Shown: positions 51,778-61,844 of the stretch, in pieces
Layout: the number at the start of each line of letters is the position of its first letter
Numbering within the stretch: the first letter of the stretch is position 1
Assembly: GCA_016937975.1 (NCBI GenBank)
Contig: JAFGVN010000099.1
Coordinates: 1-64,000, forward strand
Source of the DNA: Clostridia bacterium
GTDB lineage: Bacteria; Bacillota; Clostridia; Peptostreptococcales; Acidaminobacteraceae
Direction: 5' to 3'
DNA: 64,000 nucleotides
Program-made: the position numbers and the translations under genes
Notes under the pieces: model-generated
The model's database searches: none
What the model was told of the DNA's origin: nothing
What the model saw: only the letters and a program-made list of their open reading frames with translations

Positions 51778-54700
51778 CTATTTAGCAATATCAAAATAAA
51801 GTTTTACACCTTCTATATAGCCTTCAGTATACCCTAAAACACCTTGTTTTGCATCAAATTTTCCATCAAATGTAAAATTAACTGGGCCGACACTTTGGGA
51901 TGCTGATATAGTTCCACCAATAGAACCAGAAACATTATCACCAAATTTCACACCAAAATTATCTGCCAATCCCAGTGCAAATGCTTTTGCTTTTTCAAGA
52001 ATAATTTTATAATCACTTTCCTCTAACGAAAAGGCGGCAACAGACCAGAGAGAGGTTTCAACACCTTTGAATGCGCCTAAAGCAAATTGTCCTGCTCCTT
52101 TTATGGTATCAATTATTGTCGCTTCCACACCTGCACCATGGGTAAAATCATCTAAGACAGCAATAACTTCATAAGTATCCGGATGACCTTCTAACCATGC
52201 ATATCGCTTGTATCCGTTGATGATTGCTGGTTGATCAGGAATAATAACATAGGCATTTAATTCTCTAAAATACGCAATAAGTTCTTCTGGGTAGTGTTTA
52301 GCTCTTAATAATTCTGCAACTTCTTCAGTTATATAAGGTTCCAACACGTATAATTCTGATCCTTCTGGTAGCTTAGACCAAATGCCTTCCAAACCTGTTC
52401 CATGATGCATAACTTCTTGTTCAAGGGTACTCGCATACATACCAGCCATAATGTTAAAGGCTTTAATATTAGAATCCTCTCCTATGAAAACTTCATCAAA
52501 GGCTTGTAGTAAATCTATGGAAGTATAGAATTGGTCTTCAACTAGACGATTGGTAACGATGATTATTTTAGGTTTATTGATGTGACCAATTTTTAAGTCT
52601 AATTGTTGTGCTGCTAGTTGATTGAACTGCTGTTGTTGATAATGGAATTGGTTGAGCATACTCCTATCATACCATCTCAAAGCCGTATAAGTGGATGGAT
52701 TTGAGATTTTGTCATACAAGGACGACCATTCCTTCATCAATTCATCTCCTGCAATTGAATTCAGATCAGGTGCGTTAATGGAAGCCGTCATAAACAACTG
52801 ATCCACAGACATACCCTCATTGTAATCTGCCTCATAGGTATAAACCGTGCCATCCAATAAAATAAATTCGATTTTAATTTTTTTAAAATCATAATAATCT
52901 GGATTTATAATTTCGTCACCTAATATTTCACCGTCAGCAGTATTCATATAAAAACGCGCTTGACTACCATTAACACCTACACCAAAATCTATTGCATCTA
53001 GACTTAATGTAGACATTGGCAAATAACCATAGTAAATTGGAACTTCAACCATATGATCCATTTCAGTTTCACCTGACAATGCATCACCCATATCACTGAA
53101 CTGCTGCGTCATACTGTGTTCTGTATATTCACCATACAGGGTAACATCCATACATATTTCAGTGGAACCATATTCTGTTTCACCTGCAACATCCATAACA
53201 ACTAGATCATCAATATCTTCCATTAAGACGCAGAATGGCAAGATTAACAAATGATCTTTTCCGTCATTGTAACGAACACCAGGTACGACATCAACGCTCA
53301 AAGGTTGATGCGCTATTTTTTCAAAGATTTCTTTGCCTCTTGGTGTTAAATGTAAAACTTGCAATTTTGGTGCGTATCCTAATTTTGCCAATTGCGTATA
53401 GGCCAAATGTGCCAGGTCTTGTTCTGTTCCATAATTTTGAATGACCAAAGCTTCTGGGCTTAAATTGTATTCAAAAGGCTCTTGCAAACCATTGGAAGGA
53501 ATAACGTCAATAGCTTTCATAACTTTAAACAAATCATCAAGATCCTTAATAGATGACAATATTTGATTGCCATAGGTACTCAACATTGGAGTCGCTATAT
53601 CCTCTTGACTCGAGGTTTCATCCAATCCTAATTTTTGATTTAAAGATTCATCATCTTCTGGATGTAACAAAGCATACCTTGTGACCATTTCATTTATTGC
53701 GTCTGAAAGCTCTTCTTCAAAAGTTGAATTATCAATATAATCTACATTAGTCATCAAGAAATCAGAGCTTTGCTTTGTTTTGGTCACTGGTTGATTATAG
53801 GCTTCAAACTCCGGTGAATACAAATGCCAGCTACCTGTTTCTTTTGGAATTTCGTAAATAATAAAACCTCTTCTTGATGTGCCATCATAAACAACCGTTT
53901 CATCTGTAAAGCCTAAAATGATATGACCAGTTTCTTCACTGTAAGGTGTGTATGGCAAGTTGGTATTATTACCAAAGGTTGATAAGCCAACACTATTTGC
54001 TTCTTCTACATTATCCGGTGCTACCATTAGCATGCTTGAAATACCACTGGTTGCAAAACTATCTTTGATGTCTTCAACCGTTATATCGACAACAATCATT
54101 CTATTGTCATAATTACCAAGTTCCTGTATTTCAAAGACATCATTAAGATATAAATTGAAATATTCATGTTCAAACTTCGATTGATAGGTTGTTGTCATGA
54201 CTTTATGATTTTCTATTGGAATTACTTTATCTTCATCATACAAGTCAATGAACAATTCGCTTGTGTATGGTGCTAAAATTTCAGGCATATGGAAAACCAT
54301 ATTGACATAGTTTTGAGCACCAGGAGCCATCATTCTTGGCTGATAAAAACCTCCTGGATTTAAAACCGTTAATGGAGAAACTGGTATATAAAAGTCGCCA
54401 TTCTCCGTTTTTATTCGCATACTCATTCTTTCAGATGGATCTATATCCAGTAAAGCTTGAACACTTGATGTAAAATTGCCCTTGAGTAAAGCAAATACAC
54501 TTTTATCTTCCAGTTTTACATCACCAATCTCATTTAATAAAGTTCTTTCAGATATACTGAGGCCAAATGTATCCGTTAAGTTTGTTGCAACAGTTGTTGG
54601 CATATTTTCAAGTTCAAATGGAATATCTACTTCACCCACTATTGGGACGTGTATGTGACCATAATTGGTGTCATAGAAGTGTAAAGCAGTTTGATTCATG

Positions 54701-57700
54701 ACATCATCAGGAATTAAAAATGTAACTAATCCTTTGACACTTGAATCAGGTAAAATTGTTATGGTGTAATTTCCAGGTGAAACAATAGGTTCGCCCATGA
54801 GCCATGTGGCTGTAGATGCAGGTACTGTATCTTTATTGTTAAAGGTTAAGTACAAATGAGAAATAAAATTTGGAATTTGATAAGCAATTTTTTTCATTTC
54901 CAATTTGCCCTTTGCACCACCACTGACCCAACTTGAAGGATGTCCAGAGCCATCTGGATATACCATGACCTCTTGCTCTGGAAGAATATTTTTCATTTCT
55001 ATGTCTAAAGCCATAAACTGATAGCCATCAGGTGCAGCAACACCATTGAGTTTATCAATAAAATAGAGCTCATTAACAGAAACTTCGCAGGCTTTGTTTT
55101 GTCCTTTGCCATCTGCTACCATTCTATTAGATATAATAACTTCACTAATTGGCAATGATGACGATGATATTTTAGTTGCGGTTGTTCCATCATATTGTTT
55201 AACAAAATCTGTAAATCTATATTGAATTGTTTCTGATAAAACTATTTCATCCGTTGTTCTCTTCGGACTTAACTCAGCTAATCGACTTGTACTAAAGACT
55301 TCTCTCACACCTAAATCGTTTTCTTTTTCTACAGATAAAAATACATTCACCAATTCTGATTTTGGTGCTTCAATCACTCTATTTAAAAGTCTATTTAATT
55401 CGTCTTCTAAAAGCGCTGAATCTTCACTGATCACATAACTTCCGCCACTTAATTCCGCAGCTAAAATAAAATCTTCCTCTGCATCTTCAACACCAAGGCC
55501 AACCCAAAGGACACTGATATCACTTTCAGAGATTTGACCAAGAAGGTTTTTAAATGCATCTTCTGAATCTCTTGTGCCCAATGCTGCATCTGTAATATAA
55601 ATAATGACTTTTTTAGAGGCAGGGAGATACTTCATAGTTCTATAAGCCGCTTCAACTGACCCTTCAATGTCTGTTCCACCGCCAGCTTGTAGATTCGCCA
55701 AAGCTCTAAGCATTAATGGTTTTTTAGTTGTCAAGGATTGTACAATGCTCGTTTCATCATTAAATTCCGTTAATTGAAACTGTGCATCAACAGACATATT
55801 GACAAAAAAGTCATGAAAGAGTTGCTTCACTTTTAACAACCTATATGAACCATCAGCTGTACTTTCATTCATTGATCCACTGGTATCAATAACCACAGAA
55901 ACAACAGGAATATCTGATTTAGATTGAACCATTGGTCGTTCGTATGTTAAATCGTAAGTATTGATTATTTTTTCGTTTATTGCATCAAAAACATTTGAAA
56001 GTGCATTTTGATCATTGGCAGGATAATACACACCTCCTGTGGCAGATGCTAACTTATCAAGGGTATTGACATCATGATTTAAACCGAACCCAATCGTATA
56101 AATGGAAATGTTATTTTCCTTGACACGATCCATCATTTCTTCAAATGTAGCTTCTGATCCCCTGTCAGTGTCATTGAGATTGGCATCAAAACCATCTGTA
56201 AACAAAATAAGATTTGGTCTTTCAGCGTTTTCCAATAAATCTAATCCCAATAATACCGCATCATGAAGTGTTGTCGCGCCTCCGACTGTAATCTGTGACA
56301 AGTTCTTCAAAACGGTTTCTTTCGTTGTACCTTCCAAGAGTTTTGGCTTGGAATCAAAATCAACAAGATGTACAATGGTATCCTCAGGTAATTGTTGAAC
56401 AAATGCCTTTGCGGCATCTAAAGTTTGAGTCATTTGTCCTTTCATTGAGCCTGAAGAATCTAATAACAAAACGACTTCGGCTGGCGTTTCAACGGGCTTA
56501 ACTTCAAGAATTGTTGCCTCATAACCACCTTCATATACAACCGTATTTAATAAATTTGGAATGACCTCTTTGGTTTTATTATCTAGAATTGTAAATCGCA
56601 TTGAAATTTTGTTATTTAATTCTTCAATGTCTTTTATTTCCAAACCTAGTTCTGTGTATCCTGAAGACATTTGAAGTTTTTTGGAAACATTTGGTGGAAT
56701 AATAACTTCAGTCATTTGTCCGGAATTTACAGGTACCATCGTTGTCGAATATACAGATACAAGGGCATCACCTTTTGGTGTAATATTAACGTCCCAAAGT
56801 CCTGCAGGTACATAGACAATAAAGTCTCCATCAGGTGTTACATCTAAAGCAGTTAAATCCCCATAGAACTCCGCATGATCTAATGATAAATAATCACCAG
56901 CTGTTGGCTCTATTGTTATTTCTTGTACATATTCTGCACTAACCTTAATAGCCCCCATTGCTTCACCGTATTGAACCTCTGGAATTATGCCTGATTCCAG
57001 TAAAGTTAAGTTTAATTCTTCTGGGTAGTCATCATAAAATTCAATATCCCATTGCATGATGCCTGTGTCATAAGGCAAACTATCCATATACAACGTTTCA
57101 CCAAATTCTTCTACATAATCAATGGTTTGATTAAATGCTCTTCGATACTGACCATAAGAATGATCAGTAACCAAGGATATTAAAGCGTCTCCATATGCCT
57201 TTTCTGCTAAAAGAGAATAATAAACATTCCCTTCTAAAATTGAGATTGCATAATAATGACCATCTATTAAATTTTCTTCAGAAATCGTTATTTTTTCTCC
57301 CGGAAAGATCATATTTGCCTTGATGACATTTAAGGTAAAGTAGTCCTCTTCGTAAAATAAACTTCCAAACCATAAAACATCTCCTTCCAACGCTTGGAAA
57401 GCGAGAGAATTCCCATATCGCCCAATTATTTTCCCATCGATCCTCTCAAGATAATCAGAAAAGTCATAGAGCAGTTGCATATTTTCCACTTCATCATAGG
57501 ATGCATTGACTGGTAACAACAGGGTCCACATTTCCCCGTAGTAAACCTCATCAAATAAAACGCCTAATGGATCTACATAAGAAATATACAATTCAGATTG
57601 TGAAAGATATTCTACTTCATCATAGGCACTAAAACTATAGAAAGGATTGATATAAGGGATCTTCTCCGGCCATTCACCAATAGGTTTTTCCTCAAAGGTC

Positions 57701-57894
57701 CACATGGCTTTTGAGGCTTCAATTGTAAATTGATCCTCCTCAATATTGTTTTGTGCAAGTTCATTATTGTTTAAACTTTCTTCAATGAGATCTGTAGTTT
57801 TATTGTCCACTACAGATGTATCATTGTCTTTTTTCTTACAACCTATTACAAGAAAACTTGAAAGAATCAGTAACAAAATTATTATCTTTTTCAT
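51778..57894 (-). CDS. Giant surface lipoprotein with two von Willebrand A domains
   Basis: 2038 residues from ATG 57894 (the second of two; GGGGTG 5 bases up). A lipoprotein signal peptide with lipobox VIGC is followed by a 430-residue beta-rich region. Two von Willebrand A domains follow: the first with MIDAS DSSGSM starting near residue 480 and ending with the TDGFDANL loop, the second with DTSGSM near 671. Both have the Ser-x-Ser metal set, so both should bind a divalent cation and ligand proteins. The remaining 1180 residues contain no domain I recognise, with several beta-rich and helical stretches and a Gly-rich C-terminus (SGSIGGTISASQSVGPVNF). No LPXTG. It is likely an anchored adhesin or a scaffold outside the membrane. 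No similar neighbours. Confidence 0.82.
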   Translation of the reverse strand: MKKIIILLLILSSFLVIGCKKKDNDTSVVDNKTTDLIEESLNNNELAQNNIEEDQFTIEASKAMWTFEEKPIGEWPEKIPYINPFYSFSAYDEVEYLSQSELYISYVDPLGVLFDEVYYGEMWTLLLPVNASYDEVENMQLLYDFSDYLERIDGKIIGRYGNSLAFQALEGDVLWFGSLFYEEDYFTLNVIKANMIFPGEKITISEENLIDGHYYAISILEGNVYYSLLAEKAYGDALISLVTDHSYGQYRRAFNQTIDYVEEFGETLYMDSLPYDTGIMQWDIEFYDDYPEELNLTLLESGIIPEVQYGEAMGAIKVSAEYVQEITIEPTAGDYLSLDHAEFYGDLTALDVTPDGDFIVYVPAGLWDVNITPKGDALVSVYSTTMVPVNSGQMTEVIIPPNVSKKLQMSSGYTELGLEIKDIEELNNKISMRFTILDNKTKEVIPNLLNTVVYEGGYEATILEVKPVETPAEVVLLLDSSGSMKGQMTQTLDAAKAFVQQLPEDTIVHLVDFDSKPKLLEGTTKETVLKNLSQITVGGATTLHDAVLLGLDLLENAERPNLILFTDGFDANLNDTDRGSEATFEEMMDRVKENNISIYTIGFGLNHDVNTLDKLASATGGVYYPANDQNALSNVFDAINEKIINTYDLTYERPMVQSKSDIPVVSVVIDTSGSMNESTADGSYRLLKVKQLFHDFFVNMSVDAQFQLTEFNDETSIVQSLTTKKPLMLRALANLQAGGGTDIEGSVEAAYRTMKYLPASKKVIIYITDAALGTRDSEDAFKNLLGQISESDISVLWVGLGVEDAEEDFILAAELSGGSYVISEDSALLEDELNRLLNRVIEAPKSELVNVFLSVEKENDLGVREVFSTSRLAELSPKRTTDEIVLSETIQYRFTDFVKQYDGTTATKISSSSLPISEVIISNRMVADGKGQNKACEVSVNELYFIDKLNGVAAPDGYQFMALDIEMKNILPEQEVMVYPDGSGHPSSWVSGGAKGKLEMKKIAYQIPNFISHLYLTFNNKDTVPASTATWLMGEPIVSPGNYTITILPDSSVKGLVTFLIPDDVMNQTALHFYDTNYGHIHVPIVGEVDIPFELENMPTTVATNLTDTFGLSISERTLLNEIGDVKLEDKSVFALLKGNFTSSVQALLDIDPSERMSMRIKTENGDFYIPVSPLTVLNPGGFYQPRMMAPGAQNYVNMVFHMPEILAPYTSELFIDLYDEDKVIPIENHKVMTTTYQSKFEHEYFNLYLNDVFEIQELGNYDNRMIVVDITVEDIKDSFATSGISSMLMVAPDNVEEANSVGLSTFGNNTNLPYTPYSEETGHIILGFTDETVVYDGTSRRGFIIYEIPKETGSWHLYSPEFEAYNQPVTKTKQSSDFLMTNVDYIDNSTFEEELSDAINEMVTRYALLHPEDDESLNQKLGLDETSSQEDIATPMLSTYGNQILSSIKDLDDLFKVMKAIDVIPSNGLQEPFEYNLSPEALVIQNYGTEQDLAHLAYTQLAKLGYAPKLQVLHLTPRGKEIFEKIAHQPLSVDVVPGVRYNDGKDHLLILPFCVLMEDIDDLVVMDVAGETEYGSTEICMDVTLYGEYTEHSMTQQFSDMGDALSGETEMDHMVEVPIYYGYLPMSTLSLDAIDFGVGVNGSQARFYMNTADGEILGDEIINPDYYDFKKIKIEFILLDGTVYTYEADYNEGMSVDQLFMTASINAPDLNSIAGDELMKEWSSLYDKISNPSTYTALRWYDRSMLNQFHYQQQQFNQLAAQQLDLKIGHINKPKIIIVTNRLVEDQFYTSIDLLQAFDEVFIGEDSNIKAFNIMAGMYASTLEQEVMHHGTGLEGIWSKLPEGSELYVLEPYITEEVAELLRAKHYPEELIAYFRELNAYVIIPDQPAIINGYKRYAWLEGHPDTYEVIAVLDDFTHGAGVEATIIDTIKGAGQFALGAFKGVETSLWSVAAFSLEESDYKIILEKAKAFALGLADNFGVKFGDNVSGSIGGTISASQSVGPVNFTFDGKFDAKQGVLGYTEGYIEGVKLYFDIAK

Positions 57895-57922
57895 CATATC
57901 ACCCCAAAATATATTGCTAATC

Positions 57923-57950
57923 GAAAAAGAATAGACTTAAAAGTCTATTC
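57923..57950 (-). terminator. Terminator of the LiaF-C-like gene
   Basis: Ten-pair stem GAATAGACTT / AAGTCTATTC with AA loop and TTTTT on the minus strand; the stop codon of the small gene is just inside. Confidence 0.88.
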
Positions 57951-58502
57951 GTAAGTTTCTTCAATGACTTCTATTTTCAAATCCTCTTCAAGATTATCAA
58001 ATTCGTCTTCATCCATATCTTTGTCTGGTTCCTCTTCGACGGTTTCTTCAAGCACTTCATCGGGTTCGACATTAGCAACTTCAAGACCACAGAATTTCAA
58101 ATCGTAATGAATGTTCAGAAGAGGTGCTTCTTCGTTTTCACTGTTATCAATGGTGTTATTTTCAATACTCGAGCTTGCTTGAACACCATCCATTTGCACA
58201 TGCCAATAATCAGGTACTTTAACCTCAATACCAGAAAATCTTCCGAAGATATCTAGTAATGCAGTTTTGTTTTGCATTGTTGCTTTCTCAAAATTCACTT
58301 CTACCCCTGAAAAGCTTGCAGCGATAGAATCCTTTTCAAAGGGTTCATTTTCATAAGTAAATTGTTTACCTGTAAATTTTACCTTCTGATTGTATTTCTC
58401 AGCTCTACCATCGATTTTACATAATTCACAAAGTAACTTGAGTACACCAGCGATGCTGGCAATTAAAAGTGCTGCCTTAAATACTTTTTTTACAATTTTC
58501 AT
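57945..58502 (-). CDS. LiaF-C/DUF4097-like membrane-anchored protein
   Basis: 185 residues. One N-terminal membrane helix (about 6-26), then a beta-repeat region (40-115) with the pattern FSGVEVNFEKAT ... LDIFGRFSGIEVKVPDYWHVQMDGV, which is the LiaF C-terminal/cell-wall-stress type solenoid, and a very acidic tail (about 140-185) without cysteines for anchoring. LiaF-like proteins sense or inhibit cell-envelope stress regulators in Firmicutes, but the LiaF transmembrane module is absent here. It lies 48 bases before the giant lipoprotein gene in the same direction, with a terminator between them. Confidence 0.72.
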   Translation of the reverse strand: MKIVKKVFKAALLIASIAGVLKLLCELCKIDGRAEKYNQKVKFTGKQFTYENEPFEKDSIAASFSGVEVNFEKATMQNKTALLDIFGRFSGIEVKVPDYWHVQMDGVQASSSIENNTIDNSENEEAPLLNIHYDLKFCGLEVANVEPDEVLEETVEEEPDKDMDEDEFDNLEEDLKIEVIEETYE

Positions 58503-58569: not shown

Positions 58570-58603
58570 AAAAAAAAGATAAAGAAAAATAAATTTCTTT
58601 ATC
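58570..58603 (-). terminator. Terminator after the NRPS-like gene
   Basis: GATAAAGAAA / TTTCTTTATC stem with a 6-base loop and seven T on the minus strand. Confidence 0.85.
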
Positions 58604-58619: not shown

Positions 58620-60569
58620 TTAATATAATTTCAATTGACCATCAAACATTAACTTACCACTATGGGAAGTCATAACGATGTTTGAAGCATCTACCTCTGG
58701 CAGTACAAGAGCATTGGAAGTGTTTGTTACACCAGGACCAAAGATATAGACATTACCCCTTTCACCAACCTGAGTGATGTTATGATTCTTGTTTAACATA
58801 ATAAGACCAATACCTTCCACAGGTTGAAGGTTTTGAATTTTGCCAAATGAAACTTCACCCATCGCATAATATGGAATCGCCTCATCGGATTCAAATCCAA
58901 TGAATAATTGACACGCACCTTTATAATGAATTGGCTCCTTTACAAATGCCTTTTTAAGCGTTGGATAATTTTCGATGTCATTTCCAATATTACCATAGGT
59001 TGCTTTATGTTCTTGAATTAAATTTTCATTTCCAATAACTACCTTTGCTCCAGATAAGAAACATGGTACTAAATGTCCATAGAATCTATTGGTAACAATT
59101 ACATCGGATGTATCAAGACCTATGGTAGTCATATAATTTTTCAAATAATACTGATAACCTTCTTTTTGTACTAAACTACGACTTAAATACGAAATATTAT
59201 GATAGGTTTTAGCATCTTGATGGGTAATTTTATACCCCAACATTTTTTTCTTTATTATATTACCTTCTTTATTTAAACTGAAAGTAAGGGATAGCTGATC
59301 ACAAGCTATGAAACATGCCAACTGATCAATCATAGAATCACTTTCCAATGAGACAAGTTGATAAGGTTTCAGAGTACGAATTGTTTTCTTGAGCTTTTCA
59401 ATTTTCTTCTTAAGATCCAAAACCTGATAATTTTGGTTGTTTTCCATGATCAGTTGGTTATCCTTTAATTGATTAAAATATTCAGAAATGGATTTAGCAG
59501 GACGTAAAGGATTTAAATCCGTAAACTGATATGCTAGTTCTTTTTCTCTTTTGGTAACCAAATCAACTTCTGATAACTTTTTGGAACTATTTTCTAAGAC
59601 TTCAAAAACAATCATTCTTATTTTATTGAGCATAAAGAATATTTCATCTTTTTTGAAAGCATATTTTTTAAAAGTTATAAATAATTCCAATTCCCAATCG
59701 AATTCCCTTATTCTAAATTCAATATCTTCCTTAATCTCCTTTGAAGGAAGAATATAATGATTTCCCTTAATATCGCTATATCGGTCTTCTAAAATAATGG
59801 CGATTGGACTTCTTTTTTGAAGTGATTTCCAATCTCTTTTAAGAAATTCCTTAAGGGTTAATTCCGGATTACGACTTAATCCAAAAGATTCTTTAACTTC
59901 TAAATTACCAATAACAGAAAGATCTTCATCGAAAATATTGGTTTTAAAGTTTAGGTCCTTATGTTGACACATTTTATAATAAATACCTAAAACACCTGTA
60001 AAGAACTGAATTAAGGTAATGCCTTCCTCATCAGCGTATTGACGAATGCGTTTGGTCAAATTTTCATCGAAGGAAACTGTTTTGTGTAAAGCTTGATGTT
60101 TACCTGAAAGCATTGCTTTATTTAGATTTATGCCTTCTTTACTTAACCAGCTATCATAGGATGACCCCGTTTGCTTGTATTTACCAATAAAATATTCCTT
60201 TTCCAATCCAAGAATAAACTTCTTAATACTACTCTCATCAAATAATAATCGATTGAGCTGATAATAAAAACCTCGAAGATTATTGTTAAAATAAATCAGT
60301 TGAAAATTAGCAGGCTCATTGATTGGTGTTTTTATGCCATCTAATTTACCTTTAAAACTCAGTTGATCTAAAGCATGTATACTTTTGTATTCGAAAGTTC
60401 TTTCGTTAATAGATAAATCTTCTAAATTAAAATGAAATACATCGTGGATATGTATCATTTCGTTTAGGCTTTTTTTAAAGTACTCTTCATTTAAGTCAAG
60501 GTCATATAAAACATAACCTTCATAATAACTGTTCACTCGTTTTCCATTTTGATTAATTTTACTTTTCAT
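58620..60569 (-). CDS. Degenerate NRPS-like condensation-adenylation protein
   Basis: 649 residues. Residues about 10-340 have the layout of an NRPS condensation domain: the segment before the active site (FQLIYFNNNLRGFYY) aligns with the usual strand, but HHxxxDG reads NRLLFDE (Asn106, Arg107, Asp111, Glu112), so the catalytic His is lost. The linker EVDLVTKREKELAYQFTDLNPL (about 340-362) is the typical condensation-to-adenylation bridge. The rest is a shortened adenylation domain: the AMP-binding core motifs are not recognisable, but VGERGNVYIFGPGVTN and HSGKLMFDGQLKLY match the A5-A7 region. No carrier protein domain. No other biosynthesis genes nearby. I read it as a fossil or repurposed fragment. 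Confidence 0.7.
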   Translation of the reverse strand: MKSKINQNGKRVNSYYEGYVLYDLDLNEEYFKKSLNEMIHIHDVFHFNLEDLSINERTFEYKSIHALDQLSFKGKLDGIKTPINEPANFQLIYFNNNLRGFYYQLNRLLFDESSIKKFILGLEKEYFIGKYKQTGSSYDSWLSKEGINLNKAMLSGKHQALHKTVSFDENLTKRIRQYADEEGITLIQFFTGVLGIYYKMCQHKDLNFKTNIFDEDLSVIGNLEVKESFGLSRNPELTLKEFLKRDWKSLQKRSPIAIILEDRYSDIKGNHYILPSKEIKEDIEFRIREFDWELELFITFKKYAFKKDEIFFMLNKIRMIVFEVLENSSKKLSEVDLVTKREKELAYQFTDLNPLRPAKSISEYFNQLKDNQLIMENNQNYQVLDLKKKIEKLKKTIRTLKPYQLVSLESDSMIDQLACFIACDQLSLTFSLNKEGNIIKKKMLGYKITHQDAKTYHNISYLSRSLVQKEGYQYYLKNYMTTIGLDTSDVIVTNRFYGHLVPCFLSGAKVVIGNENLIQEHKATYGNIGNDIENYPTLKKAFVKEPIHYKGACQLFIGFESDEAIPYYAMGEVSFGKIQNLQPVEGIGLIMLNKNHNITQVGERGNVYIFGPGVTNTSNALVLPEVDASNIVMTSHSGKLMFDGQLKLY

Positions 60570-60618: not shown

Positions 60619-60653
60619 TAAAATAAAATGACTCTTTAAAAAAGAGTCATTTT
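60619..60653 (-). terminator. Terminator after the PLP aminotransferase gene
   Basis: Thirteen-pair stem AAAATGACTCTTT / AAAGAGTCATTTT with AAA loop. Confidence 0.85.
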
Positions 60654-60662
60654 GTTTAAATA

Positions 60663-61844
60663 TTATTTTAAAGCTTCATTTAAAAGTTGACCAAGTCTTT
60701 CAATACCAATAACTATATTCTCTTCATTCATATTCGAGAAATTTAAACGCATTGTGTTTTTTGTATCACTATTTGGAAAGAATGATGCACCAGGTACATA
60801 AGCAACTTTATGCTCAACAGCAGTCTTCATTAATTCAGTCGTATTTATTGCCTTAGGTAATTCAACCCAAATGAAAAGTCCACCTTCAGGTACTGTATAC
60901 TTAGCATCTGCTGGGAATGCTTTTTTCATGGTTTCAAGCATCAAATTACGACGATTTTTATATACTTCAATAATGGTTTCAATGTGATCATCTAAAGAAT
61001 AATCATCTAAGAATGCACTTAATTCCCTCTGACTGATCGTACTGGTTTGTAAATCAGCACCTTGTTTAACAAGAATATACTTATTGTGGACTTCACCTTC
61101 GCCACATACCCAACCAATTCTCAAGCCAGGTGCAAATGTTTTTGAGAATGTGCCTAAATAAACAACTCTACCCTCAGTATCTAAAGATTTTACTGCAGGT
61201 AAATGTTCACCTTCATATCTTAATTCACCATATGGATTATCTTCAATAACAATTAAATCATACTGATTTGCTAATTCAATTAATCTTTGTCTACGTTCCA
61301 AGCTCCATGTTCTACCTGATGGATTTTGAAAATCTGGAATAACATAGATAAACTTTGCATTTGGGTTTTCTTGAATCGTTTTTTCAAGTTCAGACATAAT
61401 CATACCTTTTTCGTCTGTTTCAACTTCTCTGAATTCACATTGATAAGCTTTGAAAGCATTGATTGCACCTAAATAACTAGGACTTTCACAAATTACAATG
61501 TCACCTGGATCTAAAAAGATTTTTCCGGAAAAATCTAAGCCTTGTTGTGAACCACTTGTAATTAAAATATTTTCAGCTTTTGTTTTAATTTGCATCTTCT
61601 CCATGCGTTTAACAATATGTTCTCTTAATGGTAAGAAACCTTCAGTTGTTGAATACTGTAAGGCATCTCTACCGTCGTTATGGATCACTTTTTTTGCTAC
61701 AGCTTCCATTTTTTCCAATGGAAATAATTCAGGTGCAGGTAAACCACCTGCAAATGATATAATACCAGGTATTTGAGTTAATTTTAAAATCTCTCTAATT
61801 TCTGATGCTTTAATTTTTTCCATTCTTTTTGAATATCTAGCCAT
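60663..61844 (-). CDS. PLP-dependent aminotransferase (2-aminoadipate/aromatic type)
   Basis: 393 residues, fold type I. PLP lysine in TFSKTFAPGLRIGW (about 233), pyridine ring-binding Asp in IEDNPYGEL (about 201), and the start region SEIREILKLTQIPGIISFAGGLPAPELFP typical of the LysN/ARO8-like group. Catalyses exchange of an amino group, substrate not decidable. Located near oxoacid:ferredoxin oxidoreductase genes and a FadR-type regulator, so it could feed 2-oxo acids into that enzyme. TTGGTA-17-TGATAT could be its promoter (minus strand, 61869-61897). Confidence 0.9.
   Translation of the reverse strand: MARYSKRMEKIKASEIREILKLTQIPGIISFAGGLPAPELFPLEKMEAVAKKVIHNDGRDALQYSTTEGFLPLREHIVKRMEKMQIKTKAENILITSGSQQGLDFSGKIFLDPGDIVICESPSYLGAINAFKAYQCEFREVETDEKGMIMSELEKTIQENPNAKFIYVIPDFQNPSGRTWSLERRQRLIELANQYDLIVIEDNPYGELRYEGEHLPAVKSLDTEGRVVYLGTFSKTFAPGLRIGWVCGEGEVHNKYILVKQGADLQTSTISQRELSAFLDDYSLDDHIETIIEVYKNRRNLMLETMKKAFPADAKYTVPEGGLFIWVELPKAINTTELMKTAVEHKVAYVPGASFFPNSDTKNTMRLNFSNMNEENIVIGIERLGQLLNEALK

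Follow-up and report, generated by a model that had tools for sequence, protein, structure and literature searches.

A degenerate, free-standing condensation-adenylation protein of nonribosomal peptide synthetase origin, probably a repurposed pseudoenzyme, in a clostridial genus

Condensation-adenylation (C-A) didomains of nonribosomal peptide synthetases (NRPSs) are represented by the structures of LgrA, Txo1/Txo2, SrfA-C and McyB C1-A1. By profile and structure comparison, the protein described here matches these didomains in the order of its domains, in its C-A linker and in its fold as a whole. It differs from them in that it is free-standing, lacks a carrier domain and the Asub subdomain, has lost both the HHxxxDG motif and the P-loop, and is only about 15% identical to real NRPS C-A didomains. 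In C domains more generally, altered motifs do not necessarily mean inactivity. Activity persists in some C domains of this kind, loss of an HHxxxDG histidine does not always abolish it, and ORF18, which carries HQxxxDM, is active (PMC11546977). Another C domain in which the His was mutated kept about 1% of its activity (PMC8097023).

Two relatives of C domains bear more closely on the protein. The X domain of glycopeptide-antibiotic NRPSs has a degenerate active-site motif and recruits partners instead of condensing (PMC11546977), and such partner-recruiting C-fold domains have been described within working assembly lines. The X domain of Tcp12 (PDB 4TX2, 4TX3) has the C fold in common with our protein and is among the Foldseek matches listed for it. 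The X-domain motif is HRxxxDD, whereas the corresponding segment here is NRLLFDE. Moreover, the X domain recruits P450s from inside a working assembly line; by contrast, no assembly line was found for our protein, to which a remnant of the adenylation core (A-core) is attached. By analogy, the X domain would be the closest described kind, but the present protein is free-standing with an A-core remnant. Heterocyclisation (Cy) domains also possess the C-superfamily fold. Their motif is DxxxxD; in the family described here N106xxxxD111 is invariant, with Asn for the first Asp, so that DxxxxD itself is not present, and there is no active A domain, carrier or oxidase partner. No matching case was found in the literature on degenerate or vestigial stand-alone C domains.

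The window, a stretch of 64,000 nucleotides, contains the C-A gene on its minus strand (Table 1). As an earlier sequence-only reading had claimed, the frame is intact: it starts with an ATG preceded 5' by AAAGGGGAAC, runs uninterrupted for 649 codons and ends with TAA. The terminator proposed in that reading is plausible, with a 10-bp AT-rich stem followed by U8, but is weak when compared with shuffled sequences. As a terminator-like hairpin separates the upstream aminotransferase gene from the C-A gene, the sequence suggests that the latter is transcribed on its own in the window genome.

Table 1. Coordinates of the C-A gene, its parts and its surroundings in the window.
Feature	Position	Strand	Evidence or remark
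CDS, degenerate NRPS C-A protein, 649 aa	58620..60569	(-)	ORF; whole-length collinear profile match; Foldseek
Condensation-like half, residues 1-345	59535..60569	(-)	Motif C1 lost, likewise the two histidines of HHxxxDG
Shortened adenylation-core-like half, residues 346-649 plus stop	58620..59534	(-)	Ends at A7/A8 hinge
Former HHxxxDG motif, residues 106-112, NRLLFDE	60234..60254	(-)	Only Asp kept
Likely intrinsic terminator, GATAAAGAAA-loop-TTTCTTTATC then T-run	58570..58603	(-)	Sequence and fold; z -1.45 against shuffles, weak
Terminator-like hairpin between upstream aminotransferase and C-A gene	60621..60657	either	
PLP class I/II aminotransferase, conserved neighbour	60663..61844	(-)	77% identical to orthologs
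LiaF-C-like protein, conserved neighbour	57945..58502	(-)	Weak Pfam match; 47-51% identical
2039-aa lipoprotein with two VWA domains, conserved neighbour	51778..57897	(-)	41-44% identical

The 649-residue protein is a diverged, single-chain NRPS C-A didomain. The C-A linker, which had been called recognisable from the sequence, is indeed the best-recognised part of the protein: Pfam Condensation matched residues 280-344 with an E-value of 7.5e-7 and 28.6 bits, 2 bits short of the curated cut-off of 30.6, and thus saw only the end of the condensation domain. Nine genuine C-A units, taken from a genome of the same order that carries NRPSs, were compared with a profile of the three-member family by hhalign. 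This yielded a single collinear alignment of residues 1-651 (probability 98.8), and slightly different settings aligned residues 18-650, also collinearly (probability 97.2). The C half scored 43.2 against its own counterpart (shuffled maximum 26.2) and the A half 42.9 against A domains (shuffled maximum 22.1), while either half scored 22 against the wrong counterpart. Reversed and neighbouring-gene controls reached at most 25.1. Because the shuffled, reversed and neighbouring-gene controls all scored lower, a chance match to C-A units is excluded. The A half is therefore homologous to the A-core. A search of PDB sequences with the single protein sequence gave no match, and a profile search gave weak matches only. 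A match to fungal L-aminoadipate reductase (NCBIfam, E 0.0035, residues 261-345) reflects the shared C-A linker and is no evidence for that enzyme.

The structure search proposed in the sequence-only reading returned condensation-domain and C-A entries. When the AlphaFold input alignment was limited to the three family members and contained no NRPS row, the resulting model was poor (mean pLDDT 35). Foldseek nonetheless matched this model to LgrA with an E-value of 1.8e-10, and all 50 matches listed were NRPS entries. A second model, with NRPS rows included, had a mean pLDDT of 58 and matched C-A and A structures, with Z of about 15 to A domains; it was given less weight because the NRPS rows in its input make the comparison partly circular. 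Both models are weak and the better one used NRPS rows. Overall, Pfam, hhalign with its controls, and Foldseek establish that the C half has the fold of the C superfamily and is homologous to it in sequence.

The motifs on which NRPS catalysis depends are largely gone. When the protein was aligned to genuine C-A units, once to nine and once to eight, NRLLFDE (residues 106-112) fell opposite HHxxxDG both times, in agreement with the earlier assignment. The corresponding segments of the two orthologs are NGFLFDQ and NGFIFDE, giving a family pattern of N-R/G-x-x-F-D-E/Q (3/3). Orthologs with the same lost motif had been named as a check, and the loss is fixed in all three species: none has a catalytic HHxxxDG with its second His. 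Motifs C1 (N-terminal), C6 and C7 are absent or unrecognisable. In the A half, A2-A5, including the A3 P-loop (TSGSTGxPKG) and the A5 region, are missing or unrecognisable. The A-core, previously described as shortened, covers 281 aligned columns where real A domains span 388, about 105 positions having gone. The protein ends at the Acore/Asub hinge (A7/A8), without A8-A10; it therefore has neither Asub, with its A10 lysine, nor a carrier domain. The lack of a carrier in the chain had likewise been anticipated. Across the three family members, the A3 P-loop, A5 and the A10 Lys of Asub are deleted or would lie past the C-terminus. Given these losses of motifs and domains, peptide-bond formation and adenylation by known mechanisms appear very unlikely from the sequence.

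Orthologs occur in all three genomes of the genus that were examined, namely the window genome (G000), G001 and G002. The other two proteins are 35-37% identical to the window protein and 53% identical to each other. All three are intact and syntenic, and thus not riddled with stops, the outcome that would have spoken against the earlier reading. In each genome (3/3), the C-A gene lies between the aminotransferase gene and the LiaF-like/VWA block, with GntR and 2-oxoacid oxidoreductase genes ahead of the aminotransferase gene. A DnaQ/RNase T-type exonuclease gene directly follows the C-A gene in G001 and G002 (L002 3447-4079; L003 786-1397), overlapping it by 4 bases in G001; G000 has no ortholog of this gene, its best match lying within a frame of ~1437 aa. 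PADLOC gave one weak, unrelated match in one family member.

Searches of 38 other family genomes, and of viral contigs and plasmids, revealed no relative of the protein, and no ortholog came up in samples of about 390 genomes apiece from the order and the class. In these samples, matches outside the genus span just parts of residues 262-433; among those read, the one in G037 is a real NRPS and the class-level match in G560 is a chance match to a DNA polymerase IV-type ORF. Partial condensation matches in genomes of other families (G038, G049 and G060) were rejected as relatives; the one read, in G038, belongs to a different protein whose A domain is intact. That protein (G038:C12, L008, 1-2202) has ~734 aa and is another type of C-truncated NRPS protein. 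Its condensation domain, in the N-terminal part, is shortened, and the adenylation domain that follows seems complete and bears the P-loop variant STSGTTG; frames of similar length occur in G060:C25 and G049:C71. Nor were the LiaF-like loci of other genera found to carry a decayed copy: in G011 and G007 they have different neighbours and no such gene. Within the genomes searched, the C-A protein thus appears restricted to the genus.

As to other biosynthetic genes, which had been called absent, the genus genomes (n=3) yielded no further condensation domain; one of the three, the window genome, has an AMP-binding (PF00501) ORF elsewhere (G000:C83:4203-5342, a 544-aa frame). Each genus genome encodes two small ACP-type carriers. 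ACPS-family frames, all of 123-134 aa, number one in G001, one in G002 and two in G000; they are AcpS-sized only, and no Sfp-sized transferase was found in the genus genomes. The combination of an in-chain carrier and an Sfp-type transferase in the genome, expected for an NRPS module, was therefore not found. The second ACPS-family match of G000 (C98:397-723) lies near a contig end and may represent contamination (estimated at 4.6%) or a duplicate.

To assess selection, we compared the three coding sequences. Third codon positions are saturated (0.60-0.64 differences), with the protein sequence kept. As this saturation defeated standard pairwise dN/dS estimators, a maximum-likelihood codon fit was tested against ω = 1. 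This was rejected for the C half (lnL differences of 57-122) and for the A half (21-60). No stop was observed, as compared to 13-51 expected under neutral simulation. Selection thus maintains the frame, as had been supposed, and the proposed dN/dS comparison succeeded in rejecting ω = 1 for both halves but not in yielding ω itself, which is not estimable because dS is saturated. Invariant columns number 124 of 350 in the C half versus 50 of 322 in the A half. The latter is just 26-27% identical to its orthologs, which are 43% identical to each other in this half, and keeps 15 invariant residues within residues 576-625. Since only 10 of the 122 family-invariant residues of the C half coincide with NRPS-conserved positions, the comparison points to constraints of its own on this half, as judged from three sequences; the small sample applies to the constraint and the new invariants alike.

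These data bear on what the protein is. In our judgement it is probably a pseudoenzyme: an NRPS fragment whose activities were lost but whose fold survived, and which persists on its own as a non-catalytic protein. This reading follows from the loss of the residues required for peptide synthesis in a protein that three related species keep intact at the same site, in genomes where no other condensation domain was found. That the gene is instead a functionless NRPS remnant in decay is highly improbable. Many core motifs are lost and the A half is poorly conserved, but the gene is intact in three species despite saturated third codon positions, its synteny is kept, and the lack of stops and the rejection of ω = 1 in each half already contradict decay. 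Of the earlier 'fossil or repurposed', a repurposed C-A remnant is accordingly supported and a decaying fossil is not: the intact syntenic orthologs, the fixed motif loss and the rejection of ω = 1 fit 'repurposed' better.

It is also distinctly unlikely that the condensation-like half alone is functional and the A half tolerated, slowly decaying ballast. The excess of invariant columns in the C half would agree with this, but the A half rejects ω = 1 as well and has its cluster of invariant residues near the C-terminus. Somewhat less improbable, though still unlikely, is a new enzyme, in which the condensation-like pocket was re-tooled (e.g., for acyl/aminoacyl transfer via N106 and D111) and the A-core became a structural appendix. 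Both N106 and D111 occur in every family member, NxxxxD recalls the heterocyclisation motif, ORF18 is active with an altered motif, and the two ACP-type carriers per genome could supply acyl groups. On the other hand, the protein lacks motifs C1, C6 and C7 and shows no obvious general base. Moreover, one carrier of G000 (C61) is part of a cluster for fatty-acid synthesis and the other (C43) adjoins no biosynthetic gene, and no such partner enzyme adjoins the C-A gene.

A non-catalytic role in binding or as a scaffold is the likely function of the pseudoenzyme. In the ancestor of the genus, according to the proposed scenario, a fragment of an NRPS C-A elongation module would have been stripped of its carrier domain and of condensation and adenylation activity alike. 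Its fold would have been retained, and the fragment kept as a free-standing, non-catalytic protein. The cleft between the lobes of the more constrained, condensation-like half may hold a protein partner, a small molecule or an acyl or aminoacyl carrier. What is left of the A-core may stabilise or modulate that half, as in the C-A platform. The sole clue to the partner or ligand is the conserved setting, with amino-acid-catabolism genes upstream and envelope-type genes downstream.

Automatic annotation could label such genes peptide synthetases and so overstate biosynthetic potential. A stand-alone C-A remnant would also be a small test object for what the C-A platform binds. On balance, we favour the view that this genus-specific, free-standing pseudoenzyme was exapted for a new role, such as sensing a ligand or serving as a scaffold in amino-acid catabolism or envelope functions, in bacteria that make no nonribosomal peptides. 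If so, the C-A platform can be kept for roles besides peptide synthesis.
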